A stretch of 64,000 nt of DNA from Opitutales bacterium (GTDB lineage: Bacteria; Verrucomicrobiota; Verrucomicrobiia; Opitutales; JABSRG01). Below are positions 5,200 through 22,486 of the stretch, piece after piece. The notes beneath the pieces were generated by a model. It was not told where the DNA came from. It saw nothing but the letters and a program-made list of their open reading frames with translations, and searched no databases. Location of the stretch: assembly GCA_028280845.1 (NCBI GenBank), contig JANQKZ010000007.1, positions 1-64,000 on the forward strand, written 5' to 3'. Made by a program: the position numbers and the translations under genes. Numbering within the stretch: the stretch's first letter is position 1; the number at the start of each line of letters is the position of its first letter.

Positions 5200-5718
5200 T
5201 TATTGTCTTGCCCGCTCCTCGTTGGATTTCCGCTCCTGAATCAAAGCCACATAGCGCTTCGACACCTGTTCATTTTCATTTAACTCCAGCGCTTTATTGA
5301 AGTACCGCAGGGCCGCATCTTCATCCTTTAGCTGGTAGAAGTAAGCCTGGCCCAGTTGCCGGTACATATCCGCCGTTTCTACGCTCGAATGGTCGGGAAA
5401 GCGCCGCTCAAAGTCCGCAAGCCCGGATCCAAATTCCCGGATCAACCCAATGGTCAGCTCATCCTTCCCCTGTGTTTTCGCCTCCCTGGCCAAGGTCAGC
5501 ATATCCCGCAGGACAAACCGTTTCTGGTACTGCTCCTCCAATTGACCTTCATATTTTTTTGCGAGGAACTCCTTCGCCTGGCTTGGATTTTCTATTTCCT
5601 GGCTCAGGGCTACTTTTAAGGCCTCCCCACGGGGGAGGTCAGCGCTCACTTCCTCTTGGGAATAAGACGCGGCGGACAGACCGGTTATAAGCACAATGAC
5701 TGGAATAAAGCGTTTCAT
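5200..5718 (-). CDS. Secreted TPR-like protein of the RHS operon
   Basis: A 172-residue protein with a signal peptide of about 20 residues (MKRFIPVIVLITGLSAASYS). The rest is helical, with a TPR-like stretch near residues 110-150 (QLGQAYFYQLKDEDAALRYF) in which a repeat count and an alanine/leucine pattern fit one or two TPR units. It starts 4 bp after the stop of the upstream gene and ends 24 bp before the RHS start, so it sits in the middle of a three-gene operon. TPR proteins mediate protein contacts, so a periplasmic helper for export or assembly of the RHS protein is plausible, but this is inference from position only. Confidence 0.8.
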   Translation of the reverse strand: MKRFIPVIVLITGLSAASYSQEEVSADLPRGEALKVALSQEIENPSQAKEFLAKKYEGQLEEQYQKRFVLRDMLTLAREAKTQGKDELTIGLIREFGSGLADFERRFPDHSSVETADMYRQLGQAYFYQLKDEDAALRYFNKALELNENEQVSKRYVALIQERKSNEERARQ

Positions 5719-5722
5719 GGGT

Positions 5723-6439
5723 TTATTTGGCTAAAGTTAATCCTTTGGGGCGGTTGGCGTATTTATTGCGAAGGGCTTCCATTTTCTCCCGGCCCTCGAT
5801 TGCAACCAGGCGTTCAAATGCGATTTCCATTTTGTCTAACCAGACGATTTTAGTTTTCCCCCGGTCGGAAACGATCTCCCCTGTTTCGGGCGGAACGGAA
5901 GCAACGCCTGGCTTCTCCGGTTCAGCCCATGCGGCGTTGAAGGAATAATCGAACAACCGTTCTCCCTCATGGGGAAGCAGCACGTCGTTCGTAAAGGAGA
6001 ACGAGCTGATAACGGGCCTTATGGCCTTCGCGGATGCACTCGGCTCATCCGCAAAGTCAGCTGAAACCCGACCGCTCTCGGTGGAAACTGCCACCCAGAG
6101 CGGGAGCCCCTCTAACCCTGCATCAAGCACCCGTATCCATAATTTCGTACGATTCCCCTCGACCTCGCTGACGAAGCTTAAATCTGCCGCACCCCGGATT
6201 CCCGCAAGTTCGGTAAATACAGCCTCTCCGGTGTTCAGGATGTCGACTTGGAAAAACCCGGAAATGGTTTCCTCGGAAAGGGGATTTCCATAATATCCCC
6301 AAAGGGTGTCCGGGTAAGAAAATGCTCCTAAGGGAACATTGGATTCAACAGATAACTCATCAATCAGGATACCGTCCTGAGCAGCAGCGATGTGGATTAA
6401 TCCTCCCAGTATAACCAGGAGCAAGCGGGGTGTTTTCAT
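5723..6439 (-). CDS. Secreted protein of unknown function, first gene of the RHS operon
   Basis: A 238-residue protein with a signal peptide (MKTPRLLLVILGGLIHIAAA) and no family I recognise. The middle is beta-rich and acidic (SGFFQVDILNTGEAVFTELAG), which suggests an extracellular or periplasmic beta-sandwich. The last 40 residues turn basic and helical (KMEIAFERLVAIEGREKMEAL). It is the first gene of the operon with the TPR-like protein and the giant RHS protein, and its upstream region carries a perfect 12-bp inverted repeat at 6604-6632. Function unknown. Confidence 0.75.
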   Translation of the reverse strand: MKTPRLLLVILGGLIHIAAAQDGILIDELSVESNVPLGAFSYPDTLWGYYGNPLSEETISGFFQVDILNTGEAVFTELAGIRGAADLSFVSEVEGNRTKLWIRVLDAGLEGLPLWVAVSTESGRVSADFADEPSASAKAIRPVISSFSFTNDVLLPHEGERLFDYSFNAAWAEPEKPGVASVPPETGEIVSDRGKTKIVWLDKMEIAFERLVAIEGREKMEALRNKYANRPKGLTLAK

Positions 6440-6851
6440 TTTTGATCCTCCAGTTGTTGTTGCAGAGGATCGAAGCGAAATATTCTCCTTTCAACCACGT
6501 GTCCTCTAACCACCATATAAAATGATAAGCTTTTCTCAAAAAATCCAGCATAAGTTATTCACATTCCATGCGCGCCTCTCTATTAGCGGATCTAAAGTTG
6601 TTTGGCGATGAAATATCTCCTATTTCATCGCCGGAATTGTGTATCATTATTCTCGATACTTCCCCAAAAATAGGGGGTCTCCCCCAGAAAAATCCGTTGC
6701 CGTTCGGTTACACCTGAATCCTGGCTCTCGTTTAGAAAATACAGGAAAGGAGAAGCTCCCTATCGCGATCTCCAGGTGTAGGGTTCGGCCTGCCGGCCAA
6801 TAGGGCATCCGCTTGCAATAAGCATTGTCCATCAAGCATTAAGCCATAAGC
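6440..6851. other. Divergent intergenic region
   Basis: 412 bp between the RHS operon (minus) and the Nif3-like gene (plus). It must hold both promoters, though I cannot assign -35/-10 boxes with confidence. The only striking element is the perfect inverted repeat at 6604-6632. Small open frames here have no family features. Confidence 0.5.
6604..6632. promoter_or_regulatory. Perfect 12-bp inverted repeat between divergent genes
   Basis: GGCGATGAAATA, a 5-base spacer TCTCC, then TATTTCATCGCC: the arms are exact reverse complements. It lies about 165 bp upstream of the secreted-protein/RHS operon and about 220 bp upstream of the Nif3-like gene. No T-run follows on either strand, so an intrinsic terminator is unlikely. 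A regulator-binding site or an RNA hairpin in a long leader are the two readings. Confidence 0.5.
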
Positions 6852-7709
6852 ATGAGCCCCATGAAACGCTTCCTGTTCACCCTGCCCTTGCTCCTGCCGC
6901 TGTGCGCTGTTGCCGAATCCCCCACCGTCCAGGATGTGATCGACCGCATCCGGGCTGAAGCGGACCACCCGGTCCGTGAGACTACGGTGGACACGATCAA
7001 GATGGGATCTCCGGACGCGGAAGTTACCGGTATCGTGACGACCTTTATGCCAACCCTCGCTGTGCTCAAAAAGGCAGTCGAACTCAATTGCAACCTCATC
7101 ATTCCCCACGAGCCCCTGCTCTATAATCATTGGGACAGCCTGGACGGGTTTGAGAACGATGCGGTGGTAGCGGCCAAGCGGCAGTTTATCGAAGACCACA
7201 AGCTGACCATCTGGCGCTTCCATGACCTGATCCATGACATGCACCCGGATGGGATCTACGCGGGCATGGTCAGGCGACTCGAGTGGACCGCCTTCCAGAA
7301 CCCCGACCACAAAATGCTCTTCAAGCTGCCGGTCGAAACCCGCCTCCGGACCTTTGTCGACGTACTGGCCCGGAAGTACCCGGAGGCCGAGATCCGGGTG
7401 GTCGGTAACCCCGACATGCAATTCAGCGGTTTCGGCATGGCAGTGGGCGCCATGGGGTCGCGTATTCATTTTCCGCTCCTGCAAAAGGATGAAGTAGAGG
7501 TCCTGGTCATCGGCGAAGCCAATGAATGGGAAGCGATCGAATACGTGAGAGATGCCGGCGAAGCGGGCATCCGGAAAGCCCTCATCATTCTGGGACATGC
7601 CATCTCGGAAGAGGACGGCATGGCCTGGTGTGCGGAATGGATCCAGGGCATAGTCCCCGAGGTCCCGGTCCATCATGTGGAAGCCGGTGACCCGTTCTGG
7701 GCCCCTTAA
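6852..7709 (+). CDS. Secreted Nif3-like (DUF34) dinuclear-metal protein
   Basis: A 285-residue member of the NIF3/DUF34 family (GTP cyclohydrolase I type 2-like), whose members bind two metal ions with conserved His, Glu and Asp residues. Family motifs are visible: NLIIPHEPLLY near residue 87 (in place of the usual HHP), GHAISEEDGM near 251, and the C-terminal VHHVEAGDPFW. Unlike typical family members, which are cytoplasmic, it begins with a clear signal peptide (MKRFLFTLPLLLPLCAVAES). Start could be the ATG at 6852 or the one at 6861; no ribosome site decides it, and only the second gives a classical signal peptide start. It stands alone. A periplasmic metal-dependent hydrolase is the likely role; the substrate is unknown. 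Confidence 0.85.
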   Translation: MSPMKRFLFTLPLLLPLCAVAESPTVQDVIDRIRAEADHPVRETTVDTIKMGSPDAEVTGIVTTFMPTLAVLKKAVELNCNLIIPHEPLLYNHWDSLDGFENDAVVAAKRQFIEDHKLTIWRFHDLIHDMHPDGIYAGMVRRLEWTAFQNPDHKMLFKLPVETRLRTFVDVLARKYPEAEIRVVGNPDMQFSGFGMAVGAMGSRIHFPLLQKDEVEVLVIGEANEWEAIEYVRDAGEAGIRKALIILGHAISEEDGMAWCAEWIQGIVPEVPVHHVEAGDPFWAP

Positions 7710-7727
7710 CCCCATACATAAAGGATT

Positions 7728-7850
7728 GTAGGGCCCCCTGCTTGCAGGGTGGCCGAGCCACGGTCAAATAATGCTTACCCAGCTGCCTGTCTAAACTGGA
7801 TAGTCGATTAGAATTTAGTTTTCAGCCACGTTGCCAGCAACGGGCCCTAC
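7728..7850. repeat. Short element with 20-bp imperfect terminal inverted repeats
   Basis: The left end reads GTAGGGCCCCCTGCTTGCAG. The right end, reverse complemented, reads GTAGGGCCCGTTGCTGGCAA. The first nine bases of each end are identical. The 123-bp unit sits between convergent genes and has no coding capacity. A related half-site (ATAGGGCCCTGTTGCTAG, minus strand) lies at 16039-16056 between another convergent pair. This fits a dispersed non-autonomous or REP-like element. Confidence 0.5.
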
Positions 7851-7900
7851 CCGTAGAGAAGGGGGTTCCAATTTAATTTTTACCGTAGTTCAAGAACGCG

Positions 7901-10345
7901 CTACAGGTCCCGGATCGCCTCAGTCGGGTTGATTTTCGATGCCCGGAAGGCCGGGAAAAAGGCGGCCAGGAGCGACACGGTGGAAATCGCCACCAGGGGA
8001 AGGATGAACACGAGCGGGTGTCGGAAATCGATGTTCTGTAAGTTGGCTGCCAGACCCTGTAACAGCCCGAAGCCGATCAGGAGGCCGAGGGGAATGCCGA
8101 TGCCCAGTTGCCAGAAGCCACTCCGCATGACAAGCTGCATGATCTTGCGGGGAGACGCTCCCAAGGCCAGGCGTATACCGAATTCGCGCGTCCGCTGGGT
8201 CGCGGCGAAGGAAATCACTCCATAGATCCCGATCGACCCCAGGAGCAGGGCCACGAACCCGGAGGCGGCAAAAATCGTGGTAATGACCGTGAGGCCCCGC
8301 ATGTTTTTATCCATCCGCATGGCGACCGACATGGGTTCGCGGGCCACGATGTCGGGATTCACCTCACGGACAATCTTTTCCAAAGTAGGGATAAACGCCG
8401 CAGGGTCCCCCTGGACCTTCATAAAAATAGTCGCGCCTCGATCGGCCGCCTGGTTCGACACCCGGAAGAGGTGCGGCATATCGTTTTCCGTATCCATAGC
8501 GCTGAAATTCAAATTGGGGACCACACCGATGATGCGGACCCAGGGAGCATCCGAGCGCCAGGTATCGCGAATTCGGCGACCGATGGGCGAAACATCCGGC
8601 CAAAACTGCTTCGCCATCGCTTCATTGATGATACCGACCCACTCCTCGGTTTCAGAATCTGTTTCCCCCATCGATTCGCCATCGGTCTGCAGGAAATCAC
8701 GGCCTTCTACCGTTTTAATTTCGAGGGACCGGAAGTAATCCCAGGAAACCAGCTCCTGCCGGATCGTCTCATATTCGTCGGGCCGGGAGTAATCCTTGCC
8801 CTCGACCACCACCCGACTGGTCCAGGGGAAGACCATGGAGTGGGAACTGGTTTGAGCGGCAAACTCAACTCCGGGTTGTTCCTCGAGCCGGCGGTCCAGC
8901 TCAGTGTAAAAGGCGACCACATCCTTATCTCTCGGGATCTGTTCCTCGTTTATGCTGACCTGGGCTTGAAGAATGGTTTCCGGATCAAACGGGTAGTCAT
9001 TGGAGGTAGCCACCATCGAAGCCCACATCATACCGAAAGCCCCCACAAGAGCGGCCAGGGAAAGTGAGATCTGGAAGATAATCAGGCTCTTGTTAAATCG
9101 TCCGACTTTTAGCCCTGAGGAGGACCGGGTCTGGTCTGCCAGCAAATGGCTGATCTCCAGCCGGGACGCAGCCCAGGCCGGGTACAAGCCCGACAGGAGG
9201 GCCGTTCCACAGATCAGGACCGCCAGGAGGGCGATCGTCTTCATAGAAATCGTCAGATCAAACCAGAAGGGAAGATCCACATCACTGAATGACCCACCGA
9301 ACCAATCGAGCGCATACAGGGAGAGCAACAGCCCAAGGAGACCACCGGCAAAAGTGATCACCGCAGTCTCCGTGAGAATTTGGGTCATGAGCCGACCACG
9401 GGATGCCCCCACCGAACGCCGGATGGCTAACTCCTGAGTCCGGGCCACGGATTTCGCCAGGATCAGGTTGGCTACATTGGAACAGGCAATGAATAGCACC
9501 AGGACAACCGCGGCCAACATGGCCAACAGGACCTCCTCGCTCTCATCCATGAAAAAGTGGATGAAAGGGACCAGCTCGAAGTTGAGGTAGAGCTCGTTGG
9601 TATCTGGATTTTGCTCCGCCATGCGGGCTGCGATCTGGTCCAACTCCGCCAGAACTCCCGCTTCGGTCATTCCGTCCGGGATGAAGCCGAATGCCCATAC
9701 CGCCTCAGAGTCCGAGCGCTTATCTTTGTATCGGTCTTCCTGATACGGAATCCATACATCGTGGGCTACGGGAAACCGGAACCCTTCCTCCATCACACCA
9801 ACGATCGTGTGCGTTTGACCGTTTAAGCTGACATTCTGGCCGACCACATCCGGTTCTGAATCAAACTGTTCGACCCAAACCCGATAGCCAATGATGACTA
9901 CCTTCTCCGCCCCAAAAACATCTTCCCCCTTGTAGAACCCTCGCCCGAGAGTCGGGCTGTTCCCCAGGATGTCCAGCCAGTTGGCCGATACCTGGGCGGC
10001 ATTCCAGAGTCGGGTCGCATCTTCCGACCGTAGATTGGCCCCCGTTCCTGTCCAAAAACCAAGCTCATCAAAGACCGTCTGCTGCTCCGCGATATCATCA
10101 AAGTCCTGAATCCGGATGAACGGGAACATGTTTTCCACCGGCATCTGCCACCGCAGGATACGAAGGTCTTTCCCCCCCGCAAAGTTGGGCCCCTTGAGGA
10201 TGGTTCCGTCCACGATGGTGAACATCGCCGTGACCAGCCCAATCCCGATGGCCAGCGCCGCCATCGACATAAAGGTGAAGCCGGGATAACGCTTCAGGTG
10301 GCGGGAAACGTATTTTAAATCGAGCCAGAGGGTATGTAGATTCAT
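7901..10345 (-). CDS. ADOP-family MacB-like ABC transporter permease
   Basis: An 814-residue permease of the duplicated type: an N-terminal transmembrane helix (LAIGIGLVTAMFTIVDGTIL) and MacB-like periplasmic domain, a FtsX domain of three helices near residues 270-420 (LIACSNVANLILAKSVARTQE), then a second helix, periplasmic domain and FtsX domain near 690-814 (SFAATQRTREFGIRLALGAS). The ELAIRRSVGAS and EFGIRLALGAS loops are typical coupling regions for an ATPase. Family members act in export or lipoprotein/peptide handling at the inner membrane. No ATP-binding subunit is adjacent, as usual for these orphan permeases. 230 bp separate it from the anti-sigma gene upstream, so co-transcription is uncertain. 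Confidence 0.9.
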   Translation of the reverse strand: MNLHTLWLDLKYVSRHLKRYPGFTFMSMAALAIGIGLVTAMFTIVDGTILKGPNFAGGKDLRILRWQMPVENMFPFIRIQDFDDIAEQQTVFDELGFWTGTGANLRSEDATRLWNAAQVSANWLDILGNSPTLGRGFYKGEDVFGAEKVVIIGYRVWVEQFDSEPDVVGQNVSLNGQTHTIVGVMEEGFRFPVAHDVWIPYQEDRYKDKRSDSEAVWAFGFIPDGMTEAGVLAELDQIAARMAEQNPDTNELYLNFELVPFIHFFMDESEEVLLAMLAAVVLVLFIACSNVANLILAKSVARTQELAIRRSVGASRGRLMTQILTETAVITFAGGLLGLLLSLYALDWFGGSFSDVDLPFWFDLTISMKTIALLAVLICGTALLSGLYPAWAASRLEISHLLADQTRSSSGLKVGRFNKSLIIFQISLSLAALVGAFGMMWASMVATSNDYPFDPETILQAQVSINEEQIPRDKDVVAFYTELDRRLEEQPGVEFAAQTSSHSMVFPWTSRVVVEGKDYSRPDEYETIRQELVSWDYFRSLEIKTVEGRDFLQTDGESMGETDSETEEWVGIINEAMAKQFWPDVSPIGRRIRDTWRSDAPWVRIIGVVPNLNFSAMDTENDMPHLFRVSNQAADRGATIFMKVQGDPAAFIPTLEKIVREVNPDIVAREPMSVAMRMDKNMRGLTVITTIFAASGFVALLLGSIGIYGVISFAATQRTREFGIRLALGASPRKIMQLVMRSGFWQLGIGIPLGLLIGFGLLQGLAANLQNIDFRHPLVFILPLVAISTVSLLAAFFPAFRASKINPTEAIRDL

Positions 10346-10575
10346 GGAGTCAGTCGGCTATATGCGCCGAAAACCAGAACTACACACACGACCAAGCTTC
10401 GCAAACTGTGAGCCAGCGAAACAGGTATGTTGATGAAGGGATCCACGCGCACAAGTTAATCAGGGTGAGGGTGCTGCAATGGATACTGTTCGGGGGGATG
10501 TAAACGGAAGAAGCAGTTAAACAGTTGTTTGAATGGGGCCGCTGAGCAAGCAAAATCGGAACCCCGCCCAAACTT

Positions 10576-11304
10576 TTAATAGAAACCGACCATGGCCGGG
10601 GATGCGTTGCGGGACTTGACGACACCACCCGGCTTCTCCGTCGTGATGGCAAATGCCTGCGGAAGTAACACGGGCAAACGCGGCTCAAATTCAATCCTAA
10701 GCTCATCCCCTTCAGCGCCTTGAGTAACATTGAACACTCCGGCATCAATGGGAAAATCGGCATCTCTCAGGGGATCGATGACCCAGAGTTGATACTGGAA
10801 ATCGGTCGGGTCATTGGCAGGGAAGTTGGAAAGCACCAGAACACCCTCCTGCGTGGTCGTATTCCATTCCACATAACCGCTGGCATCCTCGAAATCACTG
10901 CGTCCCGGGGCAAGATCGACCCTGACCCATTCACCTCCGGCTTGAAGCGAAGGCTCCACGATCCGATCCGAGGAGGTCGAATCAGGACGGGTTACCAGGG
11001 ACACCAGGGCGAATACAAAGCAAGCTGCCGCCACTCCCCAGGCCGGCAGGGGGGAACGGAACCAGTCCACCCGGCTCGACTGGCTAGCTACCGCGGGCTC
11101 AAAGGAATCAATATCGGATTGCAGCTGCTGTTTCAAATCATCTGGAAGTTTCGCATTGGGGGAGCCTGCTAAGGAAGCTTGCAGCTCAGCGATCAGGGCT
11201 TCCTCTTCCTCGTATGAATCCAGGGGTGGGTATTCCCTGGAGCCAGGCTCGAGAAGCTTGTCGAACACGTCTTTTCTCGGTTTGGATGATTCTGGGGATT
11301 TCAT
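10576..11304 (-). CDS. Anti-sigma factor, RskA/anti-sigma-K type
   Basis: Inferred 242-residue single-pass membrane protein. The ATG at 11304 overlaps the sigma-factor stop as ATGA, so I prefer it to the earlier start at 11352, which lies inside the sigma gene. The N-terminal ~90 residues are acidic and helical and should hold the sigma factor. A transmembrane helix follows (AWGVAAACFVFALVSLV), then a periplasmic RskA-C domain with the characteristic GYVEWNTTTQEGVLVLSNFP and YQLWVID stretches and an AGVF segment. It would hold the preceding ECF sigma at the membrane until regulated proteolysis. It is third in the operon FAS1 - sigma - anti-sigma. Confidence 0.88.
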   Translation of the reverse strand: MKSPESSKPRKDVFDKLLEPGSREYPPLDSYEEEEALIAELQASLAGSPNAKLPDDLKQQLQSDIDSFEPAVASQSSRVDWFRSPLPAWGVAAACFVFALVSLVTRPDSTSSDRIVEPSLQAGGEWVRVDLAPGRSDFEDASGYVEWNTTTQEGVLVLSNFPANDPTDFQYQLWVIDPLRDADFPIDAGVFNVTQGAEGDELRIEFEPRLPVLLPQAFAITTEKPGGVVKSRNASPAMVGFY

Positions 11305-11876
11305 GACGAAAACGAAGGAGTTGGGGATTGTTTCAGGTTTTGCCTCAGGCATTCCAGGCCACGCCGGACATGTGACTTTAGCGTTCCCAGGGGAATCGAC
11401 ATCAACTGAGCCGCCTCGACTTGGGTATAGCCTTTTCCGATGACCAGCTCGATCGCCTGCTGTTGGTCTTTAGACAGGGATCGCAACTCGGTTTCCACCC
11501 GGTCGAGCCGGTCAGAAATAACACCCTGACCGGAAAAGGCTGCTGCCTCCGGGATGGACGCCAGGGTCCTTGAAGCATCCAACGGCTCCGGATCCCGTCG
11601 TCGGCTTACCTGGCGGAGCCGGTCCAGAATTCTACGCCGGGCCAGAATCGCGATAAAGGTGACAGGTTTGCCCCGTGCGGGGTCAAACCTGTCGGCCTTA
11701 TGCCAAAGCTCTAAAAAAATATCCTGAACGGTTTCTTCCGCATCTTCTCTTCGCAGGTATTTTAGGGCCATCGACCAGACCAGGTCACCGAACAGGTCGA
11801 GGCATTCTCGCATGGCGGACTTGTCACCGGCAGCGATGCGCTGCATGACAATAACAGACTGAGAGTCAGGATCCAT
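11301..11876 (-). CDS. ECF RNA polymerase sigma factor, SigK-like
   Basis: A 191-residue group 4 sigma factor. Region 2 covers about residues 15-85 (DLVWSMALKYLRREDAEE, then DIFLELWHKADRFDP). Region 4 covers about 125-178 (LSKDQQQAIELVIGKGYTQ, then IPLGTLKSHVRRGLECLR, the DNA-recognition helix). The QDIFLELW and TLKSHVRRGL motifs are typical of ECF sigmas paired with RskA anti-sigmas. It lies 21 bp after the FAS1-protein gene and its stop overlaps the anti-sigma start, which implies coupled synthesis of the pair. Its regulon probably includes this operon, by analogy with other ECF systems. Confidence 0.92.
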   Translation of the reverse strand: MDPDSQSVIVMQRIAAGDKSAMRECLDLFGDLVWSMALKYLRREDAEETVQDIFLELWHKADRFDPARGKPVTFIAILARRRILDRLRQVSRRRDPEPLDASRTLASIPEAAAFSGQGVISDRLDRVETELRSLSKDQQQAIELVIGKGYTQVEAAQLMSIPLGTLKSHVRRGLECLRQNLKQSPTPSFSS

Positions 11877-11897
11877 TGGCCTGGAGAATACCTTGCC

Positions 11898-13091
11898 CTA
11901 GTTCAGCATGGCCAAAGCGTCATCCAGGGCGTAACGCATCTCCCAGGCACGCTGGCCGGAATTGTGCATCTGCCTGGCAGCTTGCAGTCCCTGGCGGAGG
12001 CGCTGCCTGACTTCCATAGGGACATTGGCGGAATCCATGTTCAGCACCGCAAAGGCGGCCAATTCATACATATCCGCACAGGCCCCATGTTGGCCCATGT
12101 TGAACAGGGGGACGCCCTTCTCGATCGCCATCTCGATGACCGAGGCGGAGGCCTGTCGCTTACTCGAGGATTTGCTCGGCAGGAGCACGGAATCGACGAT
12201 ATGGATGACTCCATTGGAGGCTTCGATATCAGCCGTCACGACGGAACCATTGGCAACTTGGAGTCGACCGTTTGCCATTTCAACGGGGAGAAAAATGGAA
12301 GCCAGGGTGTCGAGGTCGGACTGGGTGAACAGCTCATCCGAATAGACCCGCTCCGGAATGACGTGATAGGATAGTATTTCTACCAGGGTTCCACGATTCT
12401 CCGGCTTGAGCAGCGACTCTATCGTCCCTGCAGGCAGGGCGGCAAAGGCTTCGTCTGTGGGGGCAAACACTGTGATGTTGTCAGTCGCACTCAGCGCATC
12501 GGCGAGGCCGGCTTCGGTGGCCGCCTGAAGCAAAGTATTGAAAACTCCGGCTTCTCCTGCGGTTTCGACGATATTGTTCGACCGTGGGAGCAAGACCTGG
12601 TCGATCACATGAACAACGCCATTTTGCAGGAAGAGGTCAGCCTGGATGATTTTGGATTCGTCCACGGTTAGTTGGCCGTTCTCGAAGTTTATATCCAGGC
12701 GCTGTCCGTTGAGGGTGCTCGCACTGCGAACTTGAGTCGCCTGCCGGGCTCCCACTTCGCCTGAAACGACGTGATAGGTGAGGATTGCCGTCAGTTGATC
12801 TTTACTTTCCGGCTTGAGCAGCGATTCGACCGTTCCCTTCGGAAGCTTGGCAAATGCCGCATTGGTTGGCGCAAACACGGTGAACGGTCCCTCTCCGGTA
12901 AAGACATCCACCAGGTCTGCTGCATCCAGAGCAGCCAGGAGGGTGGAAAAGGTGTCCGTGGCGGCTACCGCCTGGGCAATCGTCTGGTCTTGACGTGGCG
13001 GGTTTGCCCCTTGGGCGAGAACATCAGGGAGCAGGCCCAGCGCGAGGATCAGTGTGACAGTCGATTTTAATGGAGTCAGTTTCATGGTCAT
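11898..13091 (-). CDS. Secreted protein with two fasciclin (FAS1) domains
   Basis: Start chosen at the ATG at 13091 (MTMKLTPLKS) because it begins a good signal peptide ending ...LGLLPDVLAQ; the open frame extends further upstream only by running antisense into the divergent gene's leader. The 397-residue product has FAS1 domain 1 at about residues 40-170 (FTVFAPTNAAFAKLP, TYHVVSGEV, GVVHVIDQVLLP) and domain 2 at about 175-310 (ITVFAPTDEAFAALP, SYHVIPERV, GVIHIVDSVLLP). A helical tail of ~80 residues follows, with one Cys in QHGACADMYELA. FAS1 domains act in adhesion and matrix binding. The operon with an ECF sigma and RskA-type anti-sigma recalls the SigK-RskA control of FAS1 antigens MPT70/MPT83 in mycobacteria. 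Confidence 0.92.
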   Translation of the reverse strand: MTMKLTPLKSTVTLILALGLLPDVLAQGANPPRQDQTIAQAVAATDTFSTLLAALDAADLVDVFTGEGPFTVFAPTNAAFAKLPKGTVESLLKPESKDQLTAILTYHVVSGEVGARQATQVRSASTLNGQRLDINFENGQLTVDESKIIQADLFLQNGVVHVIDQVLLPRSNNIVETAGEAGVFNTLLQAATEAGLADALSATDNITVFAPTDEAFAALPAGTIESLLKPENRGTLVEILSYHVIPERVYSDELFTQSDLDTLASIFLPVEMANGRLQVANGSVVTADIEASNGVIHIVDSVLLPSKSSSKRQASASVIEMAIEKGVPLFNMGQHGACADMYELAAFAVLNMDSANVPMEVRQRLRQGLQAARQMHNSGQRAWEMRYALDDALAMLN

Positions 13092-16062: not shown

Positions 16063-16839
16063 TCAGGCATCATGAATTCTCTGGATCCGCGCAGGATCTA
16101 TTTTCAGGAGCAGGAGTCCGCACTGGGATTCTACCTCTCCGGTGATCTCCACCGGCTCGGCCACATAGGGCAAGACCCGCTCATTTACGGGCTGCCCCTC
16201 CAGATCTGTTAAAAAGAAATAAAGCGGGGCACGCCCGTTCTGCCTGACCAGCAGCACCGGGGGGATTCCGCCCTGAATACAAGCAATAGCGCAGGCACGG
16301 TGAGTTTTCAGCTTCCCTGGATTCATGGCGCCGTAGTAACACTTGGAATCCACAATTTCTCCCACAAGAGTCTGCCTGCCGAGTGATTCCAGGTCGGGCA
16401 TTTCCGGAAAATGCACCGGAGTATCCAATACTTCGATACTCTGATCCGGGTTTCCCTCAAACATAGCCACGTCACCCCGGTAAATGGTCCCCACCTGGAG
16501 GCGCACAAACCGTCCGTCATGCCGACGCACGACCGCTTCGGGCCAGGACTCTTTAAACTCGTCCACCAACATGAAATTCTGACATTGATTCGTGTTTGGA
16601 ATATGAACGGATAAATGCGGGTAGGGATCAGCCCGAAACACACCTTCAACCGGCCTCAGGTCGGTCCAGGCGTAACGGCTGATTCCAAAGTTCTTTTGTA
16701 GCATGGCCATAATTGCCCCCACGCCTATACTTAAGGCAAGAAGAGCAAAGACATAGAGGCGGACTCGCCTTTTGAGAAGCGGGGGCATTTTCGGCTCCCA
16801 TCCGATAAAAAAATCTCGGTCTTCTTTTGGTTCGCTCAT
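16063..16839 (-). CDS. Membrane-anchored protein of the Rieske operon, function unknown
   Basis: A 258-residue protein with a cytoplasmic N-terminus, one transmembrane helix at about residues 28-46 (VFALLALSIGVGAIMAML) and a periplasmic remainder. Two similar beta-rich halves are suggested: one near residues 60-140 with a FRADPYPHLSVHIP segment, one near 160-255 that opens LVGEIVDSKCYYG. Four Cys lie in that second half before residue 200 (SKCYYG, HRACAIACIQGG) and another in VESQCGLLLL, so metal binding or disulfides are possible. It is the last gene of the operon, 3 bp after the Rieske gene. I do not recognise a named family. An accessory electron-transfer or maturation subunit is inferred from position. 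Confidence 0.7.
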   Translation of the reverse strand: MSEPKEDRDFFIGWEPKMPPLLKRRVRLYVFALLALSIGVGAIMAMLQKNFGISRYAWTDLRPVEGVFRADPYPHLSVHIPNTNQCQNFMLVDEFKESWPEAVVRRHDGRFVRLQVGTIYRGDVAMFEGNPDQSIEVLDTPVHFPEMPDLESLGRQTLVGEIVDSKCYYGAMNPGKLKTHRACAIACIQGGIPPVLLVRQNGRAPLYFFLTDLEGQPVNERVLPYVAEPVEITGEVESQCGLLLLKIDPARIQRIHDA

Positions 16840-16842
16840 CGG

Positions 16843-17907
16843 CTATGAAAGGATTACGGGCCGGGTAGAGGTCCCGGGTGGATTCGGTTGAGGATCCACA
16901 AATATTTCGTCTCCGACTACCCGCACATTGAAGGTGGGAATCTTCTCCGTAAACGGTGCGGGCGCAGCTCCATCATGCGGCTTATATTGGAAACCATGCC
17001 AGGGACACGTGATGCAGCCATAGGCATATTTCCCCTCCCCGAGTGGGCCGTTCTGGTGCTGGCATACATTGGAGACCACAGAAATCTTCCTTCGATTATT
17101 GTCGTCCTCGTCCAGGTATTTGAAAACCGCCACCCGTTCCCCGGACAAACTTACGATTTTGGCGCGATTGTCTTCGATTTCATCAACCCGTCCAACTTTC
17201 ACATAGCCATCTTTTTCTGGATCGGGCAAAGCCGCCATCGCTGTCTCCAACTTACTTTCTTTGCATGCTGACAGGACATGGAGGCCGCCAATGGAGGCCG
17301 CCCCCAGGAAAGTAAGCCCGACATAGGCAGGAGATAACTCACTTTGCAGAATGCCCAGTGCGACATGTATGACCAGGGCCCCGTAGGCCACGTAGACGAG
17401 CATGTGCAGCGCTTTCCAAACCGGCGCAGTCAGATTGGCGAGCCAGAAGTCATGACTGGTGGCCGCCATGAGAAAGAGGATGAAGAGGGCGATCGCTCCG
17501 AAAGCCTGAAAAGGAATCCAGGCCAGATCCCCGGTGAACGGGCTATGGAGAAAAATATTGGTAATCGGGTTCACCACGCCCCCCATGTGGTAATAGAATA
17601 GGACTAAAGCGGCATGCCCCAACCCGAGGAGGAACATGGTGACTCCCATGTGGCGGCGATTATACAGGAGCGGAAGAAAAACAGGGTTAAGCCGGGCGAG
17701 TGGGCCTGTCGCCAGGATCACATGCAGAAGTAGAAAGGCAGCCGTGCCGAAAGCTCGAATCAATACGATCGTGTCATCGGCGAAAGGAGCAATCAGCTTA
17801 GATAAGGCAAAAAAGAGGATGAGGTAAACGGCTACACTGATCCAGAGGATGGCATCATAGGCCTTCTTCACCGGAACCCACTGTATGGCCTGATAGGTCG
17901 AACTCAT
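16843..17907 (-). CDS. Membrane cytochrome-b-like protein fused to a Rieske [2Fe-2S] domain
   Basis: A 354-residue fusion. The N-terminal ~215 residues form about six membrane helices resembling the ferric-reductase-like/MsrQ heme-b domain, with candidate ligands His62, His86, His98, His168 and His181. A Cys-containing linker (VLSACKESK) leads to a Rieske domain at about 235-345. Its ligands are Cys282-Gln-His284 and Cys301-Pro-Trp-His304 (NVCQHQNGPLG, TCPWHGFQY). The enzyme would move electrons between a heme b pair and a [2Fe-2S] cluster at the membrane. Overlapping ATGA junctions tie it to the gene before; the next starts 3 bp on. Electron donor and acceptor are unknown. Confidence 0.87.
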   Translation of the reverse strand: MSSTYQAIQWVPVKKAYDAILWISVAVYLILFFALSKLIAPFADDTIVLIRAFGTAAFLLLHVILATGPLARLNPVFLPLLYNRRHMGVTMFLLGLGHAALVLFYYHMGGVVNPITNIFLHSPFTGDLAWIPFQAFGAIALFILFLMAATSHDFWLANLTAPVWKALHMLVYVAYGALVIHVALGILQSELSPAYVGLTFLGAASIGGLHVLSACKESKLETAMAALPDPEKDGYVKVGRVDEIEDNRAKIVSLSGERVAVFKYLDEDDNNRRKISVVSNVCQHQNGPLGEGKYAYGCITCPWHGFQYKPHDGAAPAPFTEKIPTFNVRVVGDEIFVDPQPNPPGTSTRPVILS

Positions 17908-18335
17908 CGGCGACCCCCCACGGAAACCGGTCCAGATACATCGACAACCTGCTGGCTGACCAGGCTGTAGAGCACCAATCGCCCCTCGCCCCCCTTGAAT
18001 CCTTCCGGGAGGGTGATCTCGGTGACCTCAGTCTGCATAAAGGAGCCAAGGAAAACACAGGTATCGGGAAGCGGTGCTTCCAGCTTCACAGTGTCCGGGC
18101 CTTCAGCCCAATACAAAAGAAGACTGGCTCCCAAAAGGGTATCAATCGGTTGAATCCTCAATGTATCCGTCTCCCATTCGACCTCAGCCTCCCAGGACGA
18201 AGCACTTTCCCTTGGCTCACCCGTGGGCATAGACGTCGGGGGTCGAACCAGATATGCGGCAATAACCACCGCCGGACAAAAAATGGCCAGCAGGCCAGCC
18301 ATCCACCGATGCCGCTTCCGCAACTTGATATTCAC
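17904..18335 (-). CDS. Membrane-anchored small protein of the Rieske operon
   Basis: A 143-residue protein, GTG start, with a basic N-terminus (MNIKLRKRHRW), one transmembrane helix (MAGLLAIFCPAVVIAAYLV) and a periplasmic beta-rich domain of about 105 residues (TLLGASLLLYWAEGPDTVKL). Both ends overlap neighbours by 4 bp (GTGA and ATGA), indicating translational coupling in the operon. It has no Cys or His pattern that suggests a cofactor. Family not recognised. Confidence 0.7.
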   Translation of the reverse strand: MNIKLRKRHRWMAGLLAIFCPAVVIAAYLVRPPTSMPTGEPRESASSWEAEVEWETDTLRIQPIDTLLGASLLLYWAEGPDTVKLEAPLPDTCVFLGSFMQTEVTEITLPEGFKGGEGRLVLYSLVSQQVVDVSGPVSVGGRR

Positions 18336-18601
18336 TGCGGAGCTCCTTCCCGCAAGACAGCCTGGCGCCGGTGTTCATTGGTTTCCACAGGTGGTTGGGT
18401 TCCGGATACCCAGCGCTTCAGCAAAAGAGGCCAAAAGGCCATTACGCCAGGAATAATCAACACCTTGAAGCGCCACTTGGCTCCCTTCGCTGCGGGATCC
18501 ACGCGCTCTACCCCTTTCAGGACAAAGGGTCCTGCAAAAATGAGTCCCAGGGCAAAATAAAGACCGAGGAGCAGGGTAATCAGCTCAACGACAAAGGTCA
18601 T
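18332..18601 (-). CDS. Small membrane protein, first gene of the Rieske operon
   Basis: An 89-residue protein with an N-terminal membrane helix (VELITLLLGLYFALGLIFAG) and a second near residues 47-60 (VLIIPGVMAFWPLLL), ending in a charged tail. It overlaps the next gene by 4 bp. Two-helix proteins of this type often accompany respiratory membrane complexes. Function unknown; reality supported by tight overlap and hydrophobicity pattern. Confidence 0.65.
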   Translation of the reverse strand: MTFVVELITLLLGLYFALGLIFAGPFVLKGVERVDPAAKGAKWRFKVLIIPGVMAFWPLLLKRWVSGTQPPVETNEHRRQAVLREGAPQ

Positions 18602-19263
18602 AATGGCAGTGGGCAGCGGTCAATCATAAGGTAGGAGCTGGCGGCATAGAAAAAATTCCAAAGAACTCCGGGAATGTTGTGAACAGCCTTAGCACATTGA
18701 GCGAGGGAAAGCCATAATCAACGACCCGCTAGCAGTTTTGAGTAAAACAGGCAAAGACCCGGTGAAATCATAAGGACATCCGCCAACGCATCCCAAAGCT
18801 CCCTTACGTATTCAGACAAGATGCTCTCCATGATGAAACTTGGGGGTAGCCCCCAACTGTAACCGCTACCGACTTCGCGTCATCGCTCAGTGTGGGTAAA
18901 CCAACATGAATCCTCTAATTTATGCCCTGTCCCCAATCCTTGGGGTAGATCATTCGAGATTCTCAAAAAAAATCGGACTGAAATAAGAGACGAGATTACT
19001 TTTAGGGCCGTATCTTAAAAGCAATTGATCGGTTGCGATTTCTCTCTATGACAATAACTCAGCTATCTAAATCCTTAGAGATCAGAACCCTGTAGAATAA
19101 GACTACTTTCCAACCTTTAAAGAAAAACAGTAATTGGAAGAAAAAATAACGCATATTAGAGTAAGTTTTATACGGGAAACTAATCAGGAATATATTTGAT
19201 ATTGGTATCTCAATACCTTAAACGGGAACTGCTTCCACAATAAAAACTTCTTGAAAGGGAAAA
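18602..19263. other. Long intergenic region bearing a dispersed repeat
   Basis: 662 bp with no credible gene. It holds a 7-bp hairpin (TTGGGGG-TAG-CCCCCAA at 18840-18856), then the left copy of the direct repeat at 18866-18945, and after about 18950 the sequence becomes markedly AT-rich up to the next gene. The composition change begins right after the repeat, so the repeat marks one edge of the foreign-looking segment. Confidence 0.5.
18866..18945. repeat. Left copy of ~80-bp direct repeat
   Basis: The stretch starting CTACCGACTTCGCGTCATCG is matched at 23418-23497, starting CTACCGCCTTCGCATTATCG, in the same orientation with roughly 85% identity. The shared core includes TCGCTCAGTG, GGGTAAACCAACATGAA and TTATGCCCTGTCCCCAATC. 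The two copies bracket the AT-rich genes and a decayed nuclease gene. Confidence 0.7.
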
Positions 19264-19692
19264 ATGGGAAAAAAATACATAATTCTGATGCTTATGATCC
19301 TAGCATCATCGGCATTACAATCAACCACTACGACAAATGTAACAGCATTCTCTCAGGTAAACTATAACAATGGAAATCCTGAAATAAAAAATGCATCAAT
19401 CGACGTAGCTGTAGACGTGACTGCTTTTGGGCAGGCATGTCCATACGGTCCCCACGACAAGTGTACAGTGAGTGTTAGATATCAGGATGCGGGCGGAGGT
19501 GGAATTACTTATATTCTTAGCGAGAGTAGAGTTTACGGTGGAGGATCGTTTGACAATCATAGCAGCGGAGGGGTCACAGATACTGTTCCTAGCTTTAATG
19601 TAGTGACAGTAGCCGCATGGACAAGAGATCTCCATGGAGGCGAAATTACGGTGTCCTCCCAATCATTTACCCGTGCGACATGGTCATATTAA
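19264..19692 (+). CDS. Small secreted protein in AT-rich segment
   Basis: A 142-residue protein with a signal peptide (MGKKYIILMLMILASSALQS), preceded by GAAAGGGA eight bases before the ATG. The mature part is beta-rich, Gly/Ser/Thr-rich, with two Cys (QACPYGPHDKCTVSV) that could form a disulfide. It resembles small extracellular proteins but no family is recognised. Codon use is AT-rich like the two genes after it and unlike the rest of the window, suggesting acquisition by transfer. Confidence 0.7.
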   Translation: MGKKYIILMLMILASSALQSTTTTNVTAFSQVNYNNGNPEIKNASIDVAVDVTAFGQACPYGPHDKCTVSVRYQDAGGGGITYILSESRVYGGGSFDNHSSGGVTDTVPSFNVVTVAAWTRDLHGGEITVSSQSFTRATWSY

Positions 19693-21080
19693 AGAAAGTA
19701 CTATTCTTTAATAAAATCAAGGCCCGGCATTTAATTGTGTCGGGCTTTTTGTATTATTTATTCCAACAAACTATGGCTTCAGAATTAAATCAATTCATAA
19801 GCTCAACAATAATATTAGATCAAAAGTGTGCAATAAAAATAGGAGAAATTGAGGTCCCCGAATACATTTTAATTCAAAAATACAGGCAGGATTTGAAAAG
19901 TGATCTTTTTAAGGTTCAAAGTGAAATTGAAGTTAAGTGGTTTAAGGATTTAATTGCTAAATATGTAAGAATAAATAATTCATATAAAAATGATACTTTC
20001 TCTGATATAGAAATAAAACGTGGTTTTGAAAAGTTTGCTAACTATGTAGTCCTTTACAATATAGATAAATTTGTAGAAGTAGATGAATTAGAACCCGAAC
20101 TCAAGCTCCAATATGATTGGATTAAGGATAGTATCAATGGAAACAAAAAATTCGATTATGACACAATCCTCAATCCAGTGGTAGCAGATGATTTAGTTGA
20201 TTCTTTCTTGAAAGTAACTTCCATGAGAGAGAATATATTGAACAGCTCAAAAAAGGATTTCTTAGACAAGGATTTGTGCGCTTTTAAGGGGGAAATCCCA
20301 AACCCATCTATTAGAACTTTGACGGTGGGAGAATTCTTAGAACTTTATTATTTAAATGTAGAGAAAGTATTCATAACAGACACTAATTCTTTATTAAAAG
20401 CTATTCATGATTCTCTTATTTTCAAATATCAACTAAAATGTATGGGTATGTTAAAGAGCAAATTTAATGATGTGTATTTCATGGAGAAAGAGAATTCTTA
20501 TTTTAATACCCTTGATACTGAATATACGATTTTTAGATTATTGAAAACACCTGAAGGTAACGAACTCTTAAGAGATCTTTATAAGAAAAACTTAAAAGAA
20601 TTTATGATTCCAAATAGCTACTCGGGCTTGCTTATCTGGAGCAATGAAAAAGACGAACTCATCGAGTTGTATTCAATATTTAAAACAAATCCATTATTAG
20701 ATGAGCTGTCGGATGTGCTCAAATTATGTGAGAAATACAAAACTGTTAAAGTTTTAGATTTAGATTTTTCCAACTATCCCGAGGAAATTAAATACCACCT
20801 GAAACAGAGAGCCGGAAACTTTGAAATAGGCGTTATGAATCGACCTATTTTGACAGAAAACTACTATTACACTATCTTCCCAATAGGCATAAAATCTAAA
20901 AAAACATTAGCCTTTGAAGAATCTCTAGGCAAATTCTATCATTATATAAACCATTTTGGCCTAGAATACTTAAAGGAACTAGTCTTAAATTTGGATAAGA
21001 ATTATTATAATTTATTTTTAAGCAATACAACATTTAAGAAATCAAATTTTAAATTTCATGAACAATATAAAAAAAAGTAA
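19680..21080 (+). CDS. AT-rich exported protein, possibly PPIase/SurA-like
   Basis: Start is uncertain. The frame is open from 19617. The ATG at 19680 gives a basic N-region followed by a hydrophobic stretch (RHLIVSGFLYYLFQQ) that looks like a signal peptide, and I prefer it (466 residues). An ATG at 19773 would remove it. The body is helical and very Lys/Asn/Ile-rich. GEIEVPEYILIQKY near the start and YKKNLKEFMIPNSYSG in the middle recall the chaperone and parvulin regions of SurA-type periplasmic folding factors, but no clear catalytic parvulin signature is seen, so this is weak. Codons 14-23 are formed by a strong hairpin (19719-19751). It overlaps the next gene by 23 bp. Confidence 0.6.
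   Translation: MVILKKVLFFNKIKARHLIVSGFLYYLFQQTMASELNQFISSTIILDQKCAIKIGEIEVPEYILIQKYRQDLKSDLFKVQSEIEVKWFKDLIAKYVRINNSYKNDTFSDIEIKRGFEKFANYVVLYNIDKFVEVDELEPELKLQYDWIKDSINGNKKFDYDTILNPVVADDLVDSFLKVTSMRENILNSSKKDFLDKDLCAFKGEIPNPSIRTLTVGEFLELYYLNVEKVFITDTNSLLKAIHDSLIFKYQLKCMGMLKSKFNDVYFMEKENSYFNTLDTEYTIFRLLKTPEGNELLRDLYKKNLKEFMIPNSYSGLLIWSNEKDELIELYSIFKTNPLLDELSDVLKLCEKYKTVKVLDLDFSNYPEEIKYHLKQRAGNFEIGVMNRPILTENYYYTIFPIGIKSKKTLAFEESLGKFYHYINHFGLEYLKELVLNLDKNYYNLFLSNTTFKKSNFKFHEQYKKK
19719..19751 (+). terminator. Intrinsic-terminator-like hairpin overlapping a start region
   Basis: AAGGCCCGGCA pairs over 11 bp (two G-U) with TGTCGGGCTTT around an 8-base loop and is followed by a T-run. It lies 27 bp after the stop of the small secreted protein gene, as expected of its terminator, yet it also falls inside the frame of the following gene. 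It may act as an attenuator between the two. Confidence 0.65.
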
Positions 21081-21888
21081 TGTTCTTGTTCTCCTAGTTA
21101 TAATAGTGATTTCCTATTTCACGGGCTTTTGCACGACTCATTTTTTAAATTTGGATTCACCGCGACCCAACACAGGATTAAATCAAGTACCGCCTGAAGC
21201 TCCTAACATAGCAACCTCTACTGATGATTCCAAAGAGACTAAAATTCAAGCTCACACGCCTGAATTACTAGAATCAGTTGCCAAAATTGAAACGCTTGAG
21301 GAAGAAATCCAAGCTCTTAAAAATGCAAGCTCGGAATTTGAAGTCAAAAATTCCATTATTGAAAACCACTTCATGGAAATGGGCACCCTGGGTAGATTAA
21401 CATTGTTCTACGGTAACGAATTTTCTCTTTCGAAAGATGCTGCATTTTTATTTGGAATTGAGGAATCGGATATTGATAAAATAAATGATCTCGGAAAAAT
21501 TACCCATACGCATTTGGCCGAACTAGAGGTTAAAGGAGTTTCCAATGTAGAGGTTTTGTCTGGAGATAATATTCGGCTGACAATACAATTGGATCAAAAC
21601 GACATTAAAGAAATTAGAACCACTTACCTTAAACAATTAAGCTCAATTGTAGCCGATCAGAAAAAAGTTGAAGTGCTCAGCTCATTGTTTAATCAAAAAT
21701 TAAATCCTCACTCTCTTCAGAAAAATATTATTATTGAGAATTCCGGCTCCGACAACATTCGTTATCCAGTTATGCATGTAACTTTAACGGATGAATCCGG
21801 AATGGCTCTAAGCGAATCAACCTTTTCTGGAAACGTACCCGAAGAGTATCAGCACTTGCTTGAATTTGATCCGGATTCCAACCCCTAA
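21058..21888 (+). CDS. Membrane-anchored coiled-coil protein in AT-rich segment
   Basis: A 276-residue protein: one N-terminal transmembrane helix (VLVLLVIIVISYFTGFC), a Pro/Thr-rich linker, a coiled coil at about residues 75-100 (ESVAKIETLEEEIQALKN), then a mixed alpha/beta domain of about 170 residues (EVLSGDNIRLTIQLDQNDIKE). It overlaps the preceding gene by 23 bp, so the two are probably co-translated. AT-rich composition matches the two upstream genes. No family recognised. Confidence 0.65.
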   Translation: MNNIKKSNVLVLLVIIVISYFTGFCTTHFLNLDSPRPNTGLNQVPPEAPNIATSTDDSKETKIQAHTPELLESVAKIETLEEEIQALKNASSEFEVKNSIIENHFMEMGTLGRLTLFYGNEFSLSKDAAFLFGIEESDIDKINDLGKITHTHLAELEVKGVSNVEVLSGDNIRLTIQLDQNDIKEIRTTYLKQLSSIVADQKKVEVLSSLFNQKLNPHSLQKNIIIENSGSDNIRYPVMHVTLTDESGMALSESTFSGNVPEEYQHLLEFDPDSNP

Positions 21889-22486
21889 GATTTTTTGAAA
21901 TTTATCCTATATAATAACACTTTTTCCCTGCGATATACTTTATTAGGGTCTCGACTAAGGGAAAGTGTAGGAGTGGAAATGGCGGACGTGTTAAAAGATG
22001 ATTGATCACCAGCCTCGAAACTTGAATTAATCCAGGATTTCATAGGCCCTGAAGTGTTTTAATTCTTACTTCCACAGATGCTGTTTAATCAACACCCCGA
22101 GTGGGCCACTCCGAACCGCAAGGAAAGCGCAATCCCATATTACTTTCTGAGTGCTCGTCGGACTGCGCACTGAAGGTCTCAACTTGAGCAAGGTAATGTC
22201 CTTCGTCCTTCTATCCAATTTTCTAGTCGCCCTTAGCAGACTCCTGGAAAAGATGTCCATGGATTACAAGAGGCCGTGGGGGTAACCTTTCCTCTATTTA
22301 GTAAGGGCTAAAATCCTTAGACTTTTTAACCAGAAAAATCCGTGCCCCTTTACGCTAAGGCGGAAATCGAAATTCCCCCCCTTGGGGGTCTGGTTATCTT
22401 GTGCCCGTCGCCCTTCTTTTGAAGCCAACAAAAGAAAAAGCCCCAGACCAAGGAGGCCTGAAACTTAAGGAGGGTTTTGGGGGAAA
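21889..22486. other. Gene-free stretch with hairpin repeat
   Basis: About 600 bp without a credible gene. GC content returns to the window's norm. It holds a perfect 8-bp hairpin at 22414-22436 (TTCTTTTG, 7-base loop, CAAAAGAA) flanked by GGTCTGG/CCAGACC arms (about 22387-22393 and 22444-22450), a nested inverted repeat that may end the decayed nuclease gene's transcript or be a dispersed repeat. A 64-residue minus-strand frame at 22066-22260 has no family signal. Confidence 0.4.

Follow-up and report, generated by a model that had tools for sequence, protein, structure and literature searches.

What might be achieved by joining a heme-binding membrane domain to a Rieske iron-sulphur domain in one polypeptide, and where would the electrons of such a protein come from and go to? 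This question is raised by a four-gene operon, here designated A-B-C-D, that occupies positions 16063 to 18601 of a 64,000-nucleotide stretch of DNA (the window) from an Opitutales bacterium of the Verrucomicrobiota (GenBank assembly GCA_028280845.1, contig JANQKZ010000007.1, positions 1 to 64,000). The evidence gathered here supports the view, advanced in an earlier note made from the sequence alone, that the operon encodes a membrane electron-transfer complex, and no named complex with the same subunits was found in Pfam, NCBIfam, PDB sequences or the open-licence literature. A-B-C-D probably constitutes a widespread four-gene relay that takes cytoplasmic electrons from two soluble enzymes, themselves tagged with Rieske domains, and passes them via heme into or across the membrane.

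The tight operon structure that had been described was recovered, with all four open reading frames (ORFs) on the minus strand. Gene A (18332 to 18601) encodes a small, mostly hydrophobic protein of 89 residues and gene B (17904 to 18335), which starts with GTG, a protein of 143 residues, both being defined by their ORFs, homologues, alignment conservation and hydropathy. They are followed by gene C (16843 to 17907; 354 residues), the heme-b/Rieske fusion, and by gene D (16063 to 16839; 258 residues). The 4-base-pair overlaps attributed to three of the four genes are those between A and B (18332-18335) and between B and C (17904-17907), of the GTGA and ATGA type, while C and D are separated by 3 base pairs.

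The fusion of a ferric-reductase-like domain to a Rieske domain was confirmed in C by two Pfam matches above their cut-offs: Ferric_reduct (PF01794, 40.4 bits for a cut-off of 28) over residues 54-178 (17374 to 17748, minus strand), and Rieske (PF00355, 51.9 bits for a cut-off of 20.3) over residues 236-326 (16930 to 17202, minus strand). The AlphaFold2 model of C (mean pLDDT, the predicted local distance difference test score, of 89.8) comprises, ahead of the Rieske domain, six helices (residues 12-39, 45-73, 84-107, 133-149, 161-189 and 194-224). Across 69 aligned C sequences no variation is seen at H86, H98, H152, H168, H181 or any of the four Rieske ligands, and H210 is conserved in 94%. 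The candidate heme histidines, at least four according to the earlier note, are accounted for by H86 and H98, located on helix 3 of the model, and by H168 and H181 on helix 5, and the C-X-H/C-X2-H Rieske ligands said to be intact correspond to C282/H284 and C301/H304. C thus displays the features of the FRD superfamily, namely a PF01794 match above cut-off and a six-helix layout in which the third and fifth helices bear histidines. This layout is the pattern of FRD proteins holding two hemes, and the C histidines would bind b heme(s), two in number. The 12-residue spacing of the helix-3 pair is shorter than that of the NADPH oxidases (NOX).

The orientation of C could be deduced from its charges. 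Lys and Arg residues are more numerous in inside-type than in outside-type loops in all 49 aligned sequences in which they were counted (mean 7.7 versus 1.2), the Lys/Arg-rich loops being in every case those on the side of the N-terminus and of the Rieske domain; therefore, by this charge bias, the Rieske domain is predicted to lie in the cytoplasm. As judged by its invariant C-x-H/C-x2-H ligands and its modelled fold, which in Foldseek best matches the ferredoxins of carbazole, biphenyl and toluene dioxygenases, this domain is of the dioxygenase-ferredoxin type. It resembles CarAc, BphA3 and T4moC in fold and ligands, but differs from them in being attached to a membrane heme-b domain instead of free.

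The search for the same four-gene order suggested in the earlier note was carried out by scanning GTDB with one genome per species. It returned 332 relatives of C; the 80 best loci were retained, forming the basis of all counts out of 80 given below, and the order recurs in them. A is present in 75, D in 79 and B in 63, the latter figure being a lower bound because B is short (50 to 225 residues), variable and poorly conserved, and may be under-called; A, B and D are all present in 59. As the loci were fetched using C alone, these figures place the companionship of A, B and D with C far beyond chance. Spacings between the genes often run from -4 to a few bases, and in three loci (L023, L071 and L073) C and D are encoded as one ORF. 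According to the record titles, the loci span more than 10 bacterial groups, among them Verrucomicrobia, Acidobacteria, Planctomycetes, Gemmatimonadetes, Calditrichia, Balneola, Saprospiraceae, Cyanobacteria and Alpha-, Gamma- and Deltaproteobacteria. Relatives of C were found on five Rhizobium plasmid records, with the same gene order in both records examined, where the only annotations are "Rieske 2Fe-2S domain-containing protein" and "hypothetical protein". None was found in viral contigs.

A few other neighbours of the operon deserve mention. In about 10 loci (L027 at 7807-12395, L038, L091 and others) D is followed by an OlsB-like acyltransferase and in some by an OlsA-like one, of the ornithine-lipid type; some of these loci add a TANGO2/NRDE protein and a DedA-ATP-grasp fusion. 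In Rhizobium leguminosarum bv. trifolii WSM1689 the operon lies on a plasmid (NZ_CP007050.1, 33668-35912), and a gene for a TPP-binding (thiamine pyrophosphate) protein is found not far from it. Downstream of the operon on this plasmid (L139, 10915-13385), genes are annotated as encoding an ECF-like (extracytoplasmic function) sigma factor, DUF1109, NrsF and a chlorite dismutase family protein. One neighbour cluster (c1) was dropped, as it looks like spurious antisense ORFs.

How new is such a system? C resembles MsrQ and other FRD proteins in its six-helix heme-b membrane domain, its Ferric_reduct match and its histidines in helices 3 and 5, the known system being one that moves electrons across the membrane. 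It departs from MsrQ in its C-terminal Rieske domain, which would act as a cytoplasmic port, and in having subunits of its own (A, B and D); its score against the MsrQ model NF003831 is 31.5 bits, for a cut-off of 130. No MsrP-type molybdoenzyme was recognised by Pfam or NCBIfam among the four operon genes, the rest of the genome lying outside that search. In relation to NOX, the Rieske domain of C takes the place of the C-terminal FAD/NAD(P)H domain (FAD, flavin adenine dinucleotide). A figure legend in Zhang et al. 2013 (PMC3591440) lists an FRD plus Rieske architecture as model M4, naming also flavin mononucleotide (FMN) and giving no function. This is probably the same domain pair as in C, and that legend describes no operon, partners or function. 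Searches of the open-licence literature for the fusion, the operon and the partner proteins yielded nothing beyond this listing. The earlier claim that the complex was undescribed holds, therefore, as far as a named complex is concerned, but not for the bare fusion. Since that bare listing was all that turned up, A-B-C-D can be regarded as a conduit of the FRD type in which both the subunits and the kind of port on the cytoplasmic side are new.

Two of the neighbours of C had been taken for unknown membrane proteins. Pfam and NCBIfam profile searches indeed gave zero family matches for A, B and D, and the description can be refined, since only A is mostly hydrophobic, B and D having a single hydrophobic N-terminal segment each. 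In A there is a clear hydrophobic segment near residues 1-31, and Y15, G19, G30, D35, W57 and P58 are conserved; in B the conserved residues are R6, H9 and P41, and many Alphaproteobacteria carry versions of only about 50 to 66 residues. The Cys-rich domain noticed in one neighbour belongs to D. The AlphaFold2 model of D (mean pLDDT 90.2), predicted separately from that of C, shows two OB barrels preceded by a membrane helix at residues 20-47. The second barrel (residues 151-247; 16099 to 16389, minus strand) holds, by alignment and structure model, an invariant set formed by C167, M172, H180, C183 and C187, of which the three cysteines and the histidine are invariant in 59 sequences. This C-x3-C with His and Met resembles copper-site arrangements, and constitutes a candidate metal site. 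Because the Rieske end of C is joined to the start of D in the three single ORFs, the start of D probably lies on the inner side of the membrane and its barrels on the outer; we infer that the latter, including the Cys/His OB domain, are probably periplasmic. In alignments built on a natural C-D fusion, with rows left unpaired, D was placed wrongly against C, and these alignments were excluded from prediction.

Reading a function for D from its fold was abandoned, as only generic OB-fold likeness was found. A PDB sequence search with D gave no match, Foldseek returned only generic OB folds, all with E-values above 0.001, and the best hit of a second structural comparison, Potempin A (Z 7.4), may reflect the common fold only. 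Shorter proteins with the D-type Cys/His domain, without a Pfam family, stand alone in class-mates of the window organism, and no informative neighbour of these was seen by eye.

The new element in the system, and the best clue to its function, is provided by two soluble partners tagged with Rieske domains. The first and commonest operon neighbour, Rieske-GltS, has about 540 residues and combines an N-terminal Rieske domain with the FMN domain of glutamate synthase. It matches only residues ~855-1160 of the glutamate synthase large chain, lacks the glutaminase part and keeps the C-x5-C-x4-C motif, that is, the three cysteines of the 3Fe-4S cluster. The second, Rieske-pyruvate-oxidase (Rieske-oxidase hereafter), has about 660 residues, with an N-terminal Rieske domain preceding a pyruvate-oxidase core that is closest to E. 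coli PoxB (3EY9/3EYA, E-value 4e-68), a pyruvate oxidase dependent on thiamine pyrophosphate (TPP) and FAD. The protein of locus L099, where the Rieske-oxidase and Rieske-GltS pair spans 6840-10544, keeps RHE and GDGGF...N aligned with the catalytic Glu and the TPP motif of PoxB. It aligns up to residue ~530 of the 572 of PoxB and then ends; it thus differs from PoxB in the added Rieske domain and in the missing C-terminal peptide, the one by which PoxB binds the membrane.

The Rieske-GltS gene adjoins the operon in 28 of the 80 loci (as one ORF in 25, split in L049 and L071, and cut by the contig end in L051), the Rieske-oxidase gene in 22, and one or the other in 31. In the window genome both genes lie side by side on another contig, behind a LysR regulator whose translation lacks cysteine, so that its identification as OxyR was not adopted. 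A search for Rieske proteins in that genome found exactly three: C, Rieske-GltS and Rieske-oxidase. Nine loci also have, close to the Rieske enzymes, a DUF1622 membrane protein (for example L046 at 5635-6000 and L070 at 3426-3863).

The association extends beyond adjacency. Among 49 operon genomes with neither partner nearby, Rieske-GltS (full or split) is encoded elsewhere in 21 and Rieske-oxidase in 18. Rieske-GltS is therefore found in 28 adjoining cases plus 21 elsewhere out of 77 genomes, loci L025, L059 and L094 being outside the genome-wide search; alignments had to start before query residue 20, and the split genes of G059 (same place as G245), G121 and G269 were counted as present. 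Two samples of unselected genomes agree with this picture. Among 240 genomes of the phylum, the five with full-length C are also the five with D, and Rieske-GltS was found in four of these (two split) versus 0 of the 235 C-negative genomes among the matches listed; for Rieske-oxidase the figures are 1/5 versus 0/235. In 142 alphaproteobacterial genomes, seven of them with C, Rieske-GltS is present in 4/7 C-positive versus 1/135 C-negative genomes, and Rieske-oxidase in 4/7 versus 4/135. The Fisher values, uncorrected for kinship, are 4e-8 (GltS, phylum), 1e-5 (GltS, alphaproteobacteria) and 1e-4 (oxidase, alphaproteobacteria).

In genomes devoid of full-length C the same flavoenzymes carry other iron domains. 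Both enzymes are clustered in G159, G227 and G035 with N-terminal rubredoxin-like domains (confirmed by Pfam for G227) replacing Rieske, and adjoin Fur and rubrerythrin genes; in G055 a GltS-like protein with a double rubredoxin adjoins rubrerythrin, and the GltS-like proteins of G119, G015, G157 and G310 have CDGSH domains. Related arrangements are the following: in L119 (2094-9481), L110 and L120, genes for pyruvate oxidase and a GltS-like protein, both fused to rubredoxin, accompany Fur and rubrerythrin genes in an apparent peroxide-defence cluster, to which L119 adds a peroxidase gene (KatG-like by eye); in L131 (6488-9148) and L132 (4942-7719), pyruvate-oxidase-like chains of about 900 residues combine a Rieske domain with a divergent 4Fe-4S domain and two stretches of CDGSH type; and, in L117 (2497-7374), a CDGSH-GltS-like gene after two sufB/sufD-like genes (by eye) and a small Rieske ferredoxin. 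A described protein of this build is CD0828 of Clostridioides difficile, a rubredoxin-GltS protein that protects against H2O2, the mutant being 3-5 logs more sensitive (PMC11980386). According to that paper, it has about 500 residues, a GltS-like FMN/3Fe-4S domain, an N-terminal iron domain and a place in a peroxide-defence operon. Compared through this published description, Rieske-GltS is similar in its FMN domain with C-x5-C-x4-C, but has Rieske instead of rubredoxin and a membrane heme protein as partner, where that of CD0828 is rubrerythrin.

It can be proposed, with about an even chance of being right, that A-B-C-D is a membrane electron conduit whose cytoplasmic Rieske port is fed by the Rieske flavoenzymes, with flow outward via heme b to D. 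The FAD/TPP pyruvate-oxidase-like enzyme and the FMN/3Fe-4S glutamate-synthase-like protein would oxidise their substrates in the cytoplasm, single electrons passing Rieske-to-Rieske from flavoenzyme to C, with the Rieske domain standing in for PoxB's own membrane contact. C would move them, through b heme(s) on H86/H98 and H168/H181, toward the periplasmic side of the membrane; there, the likely acceptor, or a metal/redox relay, would be the Cys3/His/Met site of D. A and B may be small structural subunits. The electrons of pyruvate oxidation lie far below the potential of a ferredoxin-type Rieske centre; for this reason, and because Rieske replaces the membrane contact of PoxB, flow from flavoenzyme to C is favoured. 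The computed foundation of this scheme consists of the operon, the fold and ligands of C, the sidedness of its Rieske domain, the C-D single ORFs, the co-occurrence and adjacency of the flavoenzymes, and the plug exchange. From these we infer that a complex would form with the cofactors named, that electrons would run outward with D as acceptor, and that the system may take part in redox or oxidative-stress balance. All four proteins may assemble physically into one complex, gene fusion supporting this for C and D alone. A broader and more tentative idea, to which somewhat less than even credence is given, is that of a "Rieske bus", a wiring scheme general among bacteria in which cytoplasmic flavoenzymes would be connected to chosen acceptors by an exchangeable N-terminal iron plug (Rieske to A-B-C-D, rubredoxin to rubrerythrin, CDGSH to some further acceptor). 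A-B-C-D would then span the membrane as a complex through which electrons from metabolism are exported, their recipient being a periplasmic redox protein of a new kind, with a Cys3His OB fold.

Several observations weigh against the proposed conduit. Four of the 135 alphaproteobacteria devoid of C have Rieske-oxidase, though three of these four show CDGSH domains before Rieske; three of the seven C-positive alphaproteobacteria lack both soluble partners; Rieske-oxidase occurs in just one of the five C-positive genomes of the phylum sample; and Rieske-GltS is absent from 28 of the 49 operon-locus genomes, perhaps partly because many are metagenome-assembled. The commonest neighbour clusters of A-B-C-D show no oxidative-stress gene, and the Cys/His/Met site of D could be structural rather than redox. 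As for rubredoxin, electron transfer from CD0828 to rubrerythrin was very slow in vitro, and its authors doubt a physiological donor role (PMC11980386).

The main rival to an outward flow to D has quinone as the final acceptor: the Rieske flavoenzymes would reduce C and C would reduce membrane quinone, in the manner of electron-transferring flavoprotein-quinone oxidoreductase or PoxB, with D, A and B serving assembly or stability. The partner oxidase is closest to the ubiquinone-reducing PoxB and lacks only its membrane-binding end, and published work connects MsrQ-like proteins of the ferric-reductase type with quinol or flavin. However, D is commoner than A or B, has an invariant Cys/His/Met set and forms one ORF with C in three loci, for which reasons it fits better as a redox partner than as an accessory, and this rival is considered rather unlikely. 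Less probable still is a reverse flow in which C would draw from quinol or the periplasm and feed the cytoplasmic Rieske enzymes, for example for reductive glutamate synthesis by the GltS-like protein. The retained 3Fe-4S cysteines, and the use of [2Fe-2S] ferredoxin electrons by some ordinary glutamate synthases, would suit it, but quinol, being too oxidising, could not by itself reduce a Rieske centre of the ferredoxin type, the partner oxidase releases electrons and the GltS-like protein is devoid of the glutaminase part. A similarly small probability is given to the absence of any functional link, A-B-C-D serving a different partner and merely sharing neighbourhoods with the Rieske flavoenzymes. 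Many operon genomes lack one or both enzymes and other neighbours recur, such as the OlsB/OlsA-like acyltransferases, but this reading has to face the association in both unselected samples and the fact that all three proteins match the Rieske family in a genome without any other Rieske protein. Finally, a quinol-oxidising complex of the bc1/b6f kind, suggested by the pairing of Rieske with heme b and by the lack of bc1 cytochrome b in the window genome (97.7% complete; 0 matches to Cytochrome_B, PF00033, which is matched in 8 of 14 controls), is extremely improbable, a bc1 replacement role being rejected, and largely refuted by sidedness, given the cytoplasmic, ferredoxin-type Rieske domain, the lack of a Cytochrome_B match and an operon without a cytochrome c gene.

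Elsewhere in the window, an AT-rich island (19000-22000; GC content about 0.33 versus 0.5-0.57 around it) with three plus-strand ORFs starts just upstream of gene A and looks like acquired DNA. At 40192-41781, a translation read by eye suggests an exosortase-like membrane protein adjoining polysaccharide export genes.

If the conduit proposed here is real, A-B-C-D would represent an unnamed route by which electrons enter or cross the membrane, found in many phyla and also in culturable rhizobia. It would explain how an anchorless PoxB-like enzyme reaches the membrane, and would mean that one pair of flavoenzymes has been re-plugged to different acceptors by swapping an iron domain, which could be tested with purified proteins. 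It may also bear on the role of the rubredoxin-GltS protein CD0828 in peroxide defence.

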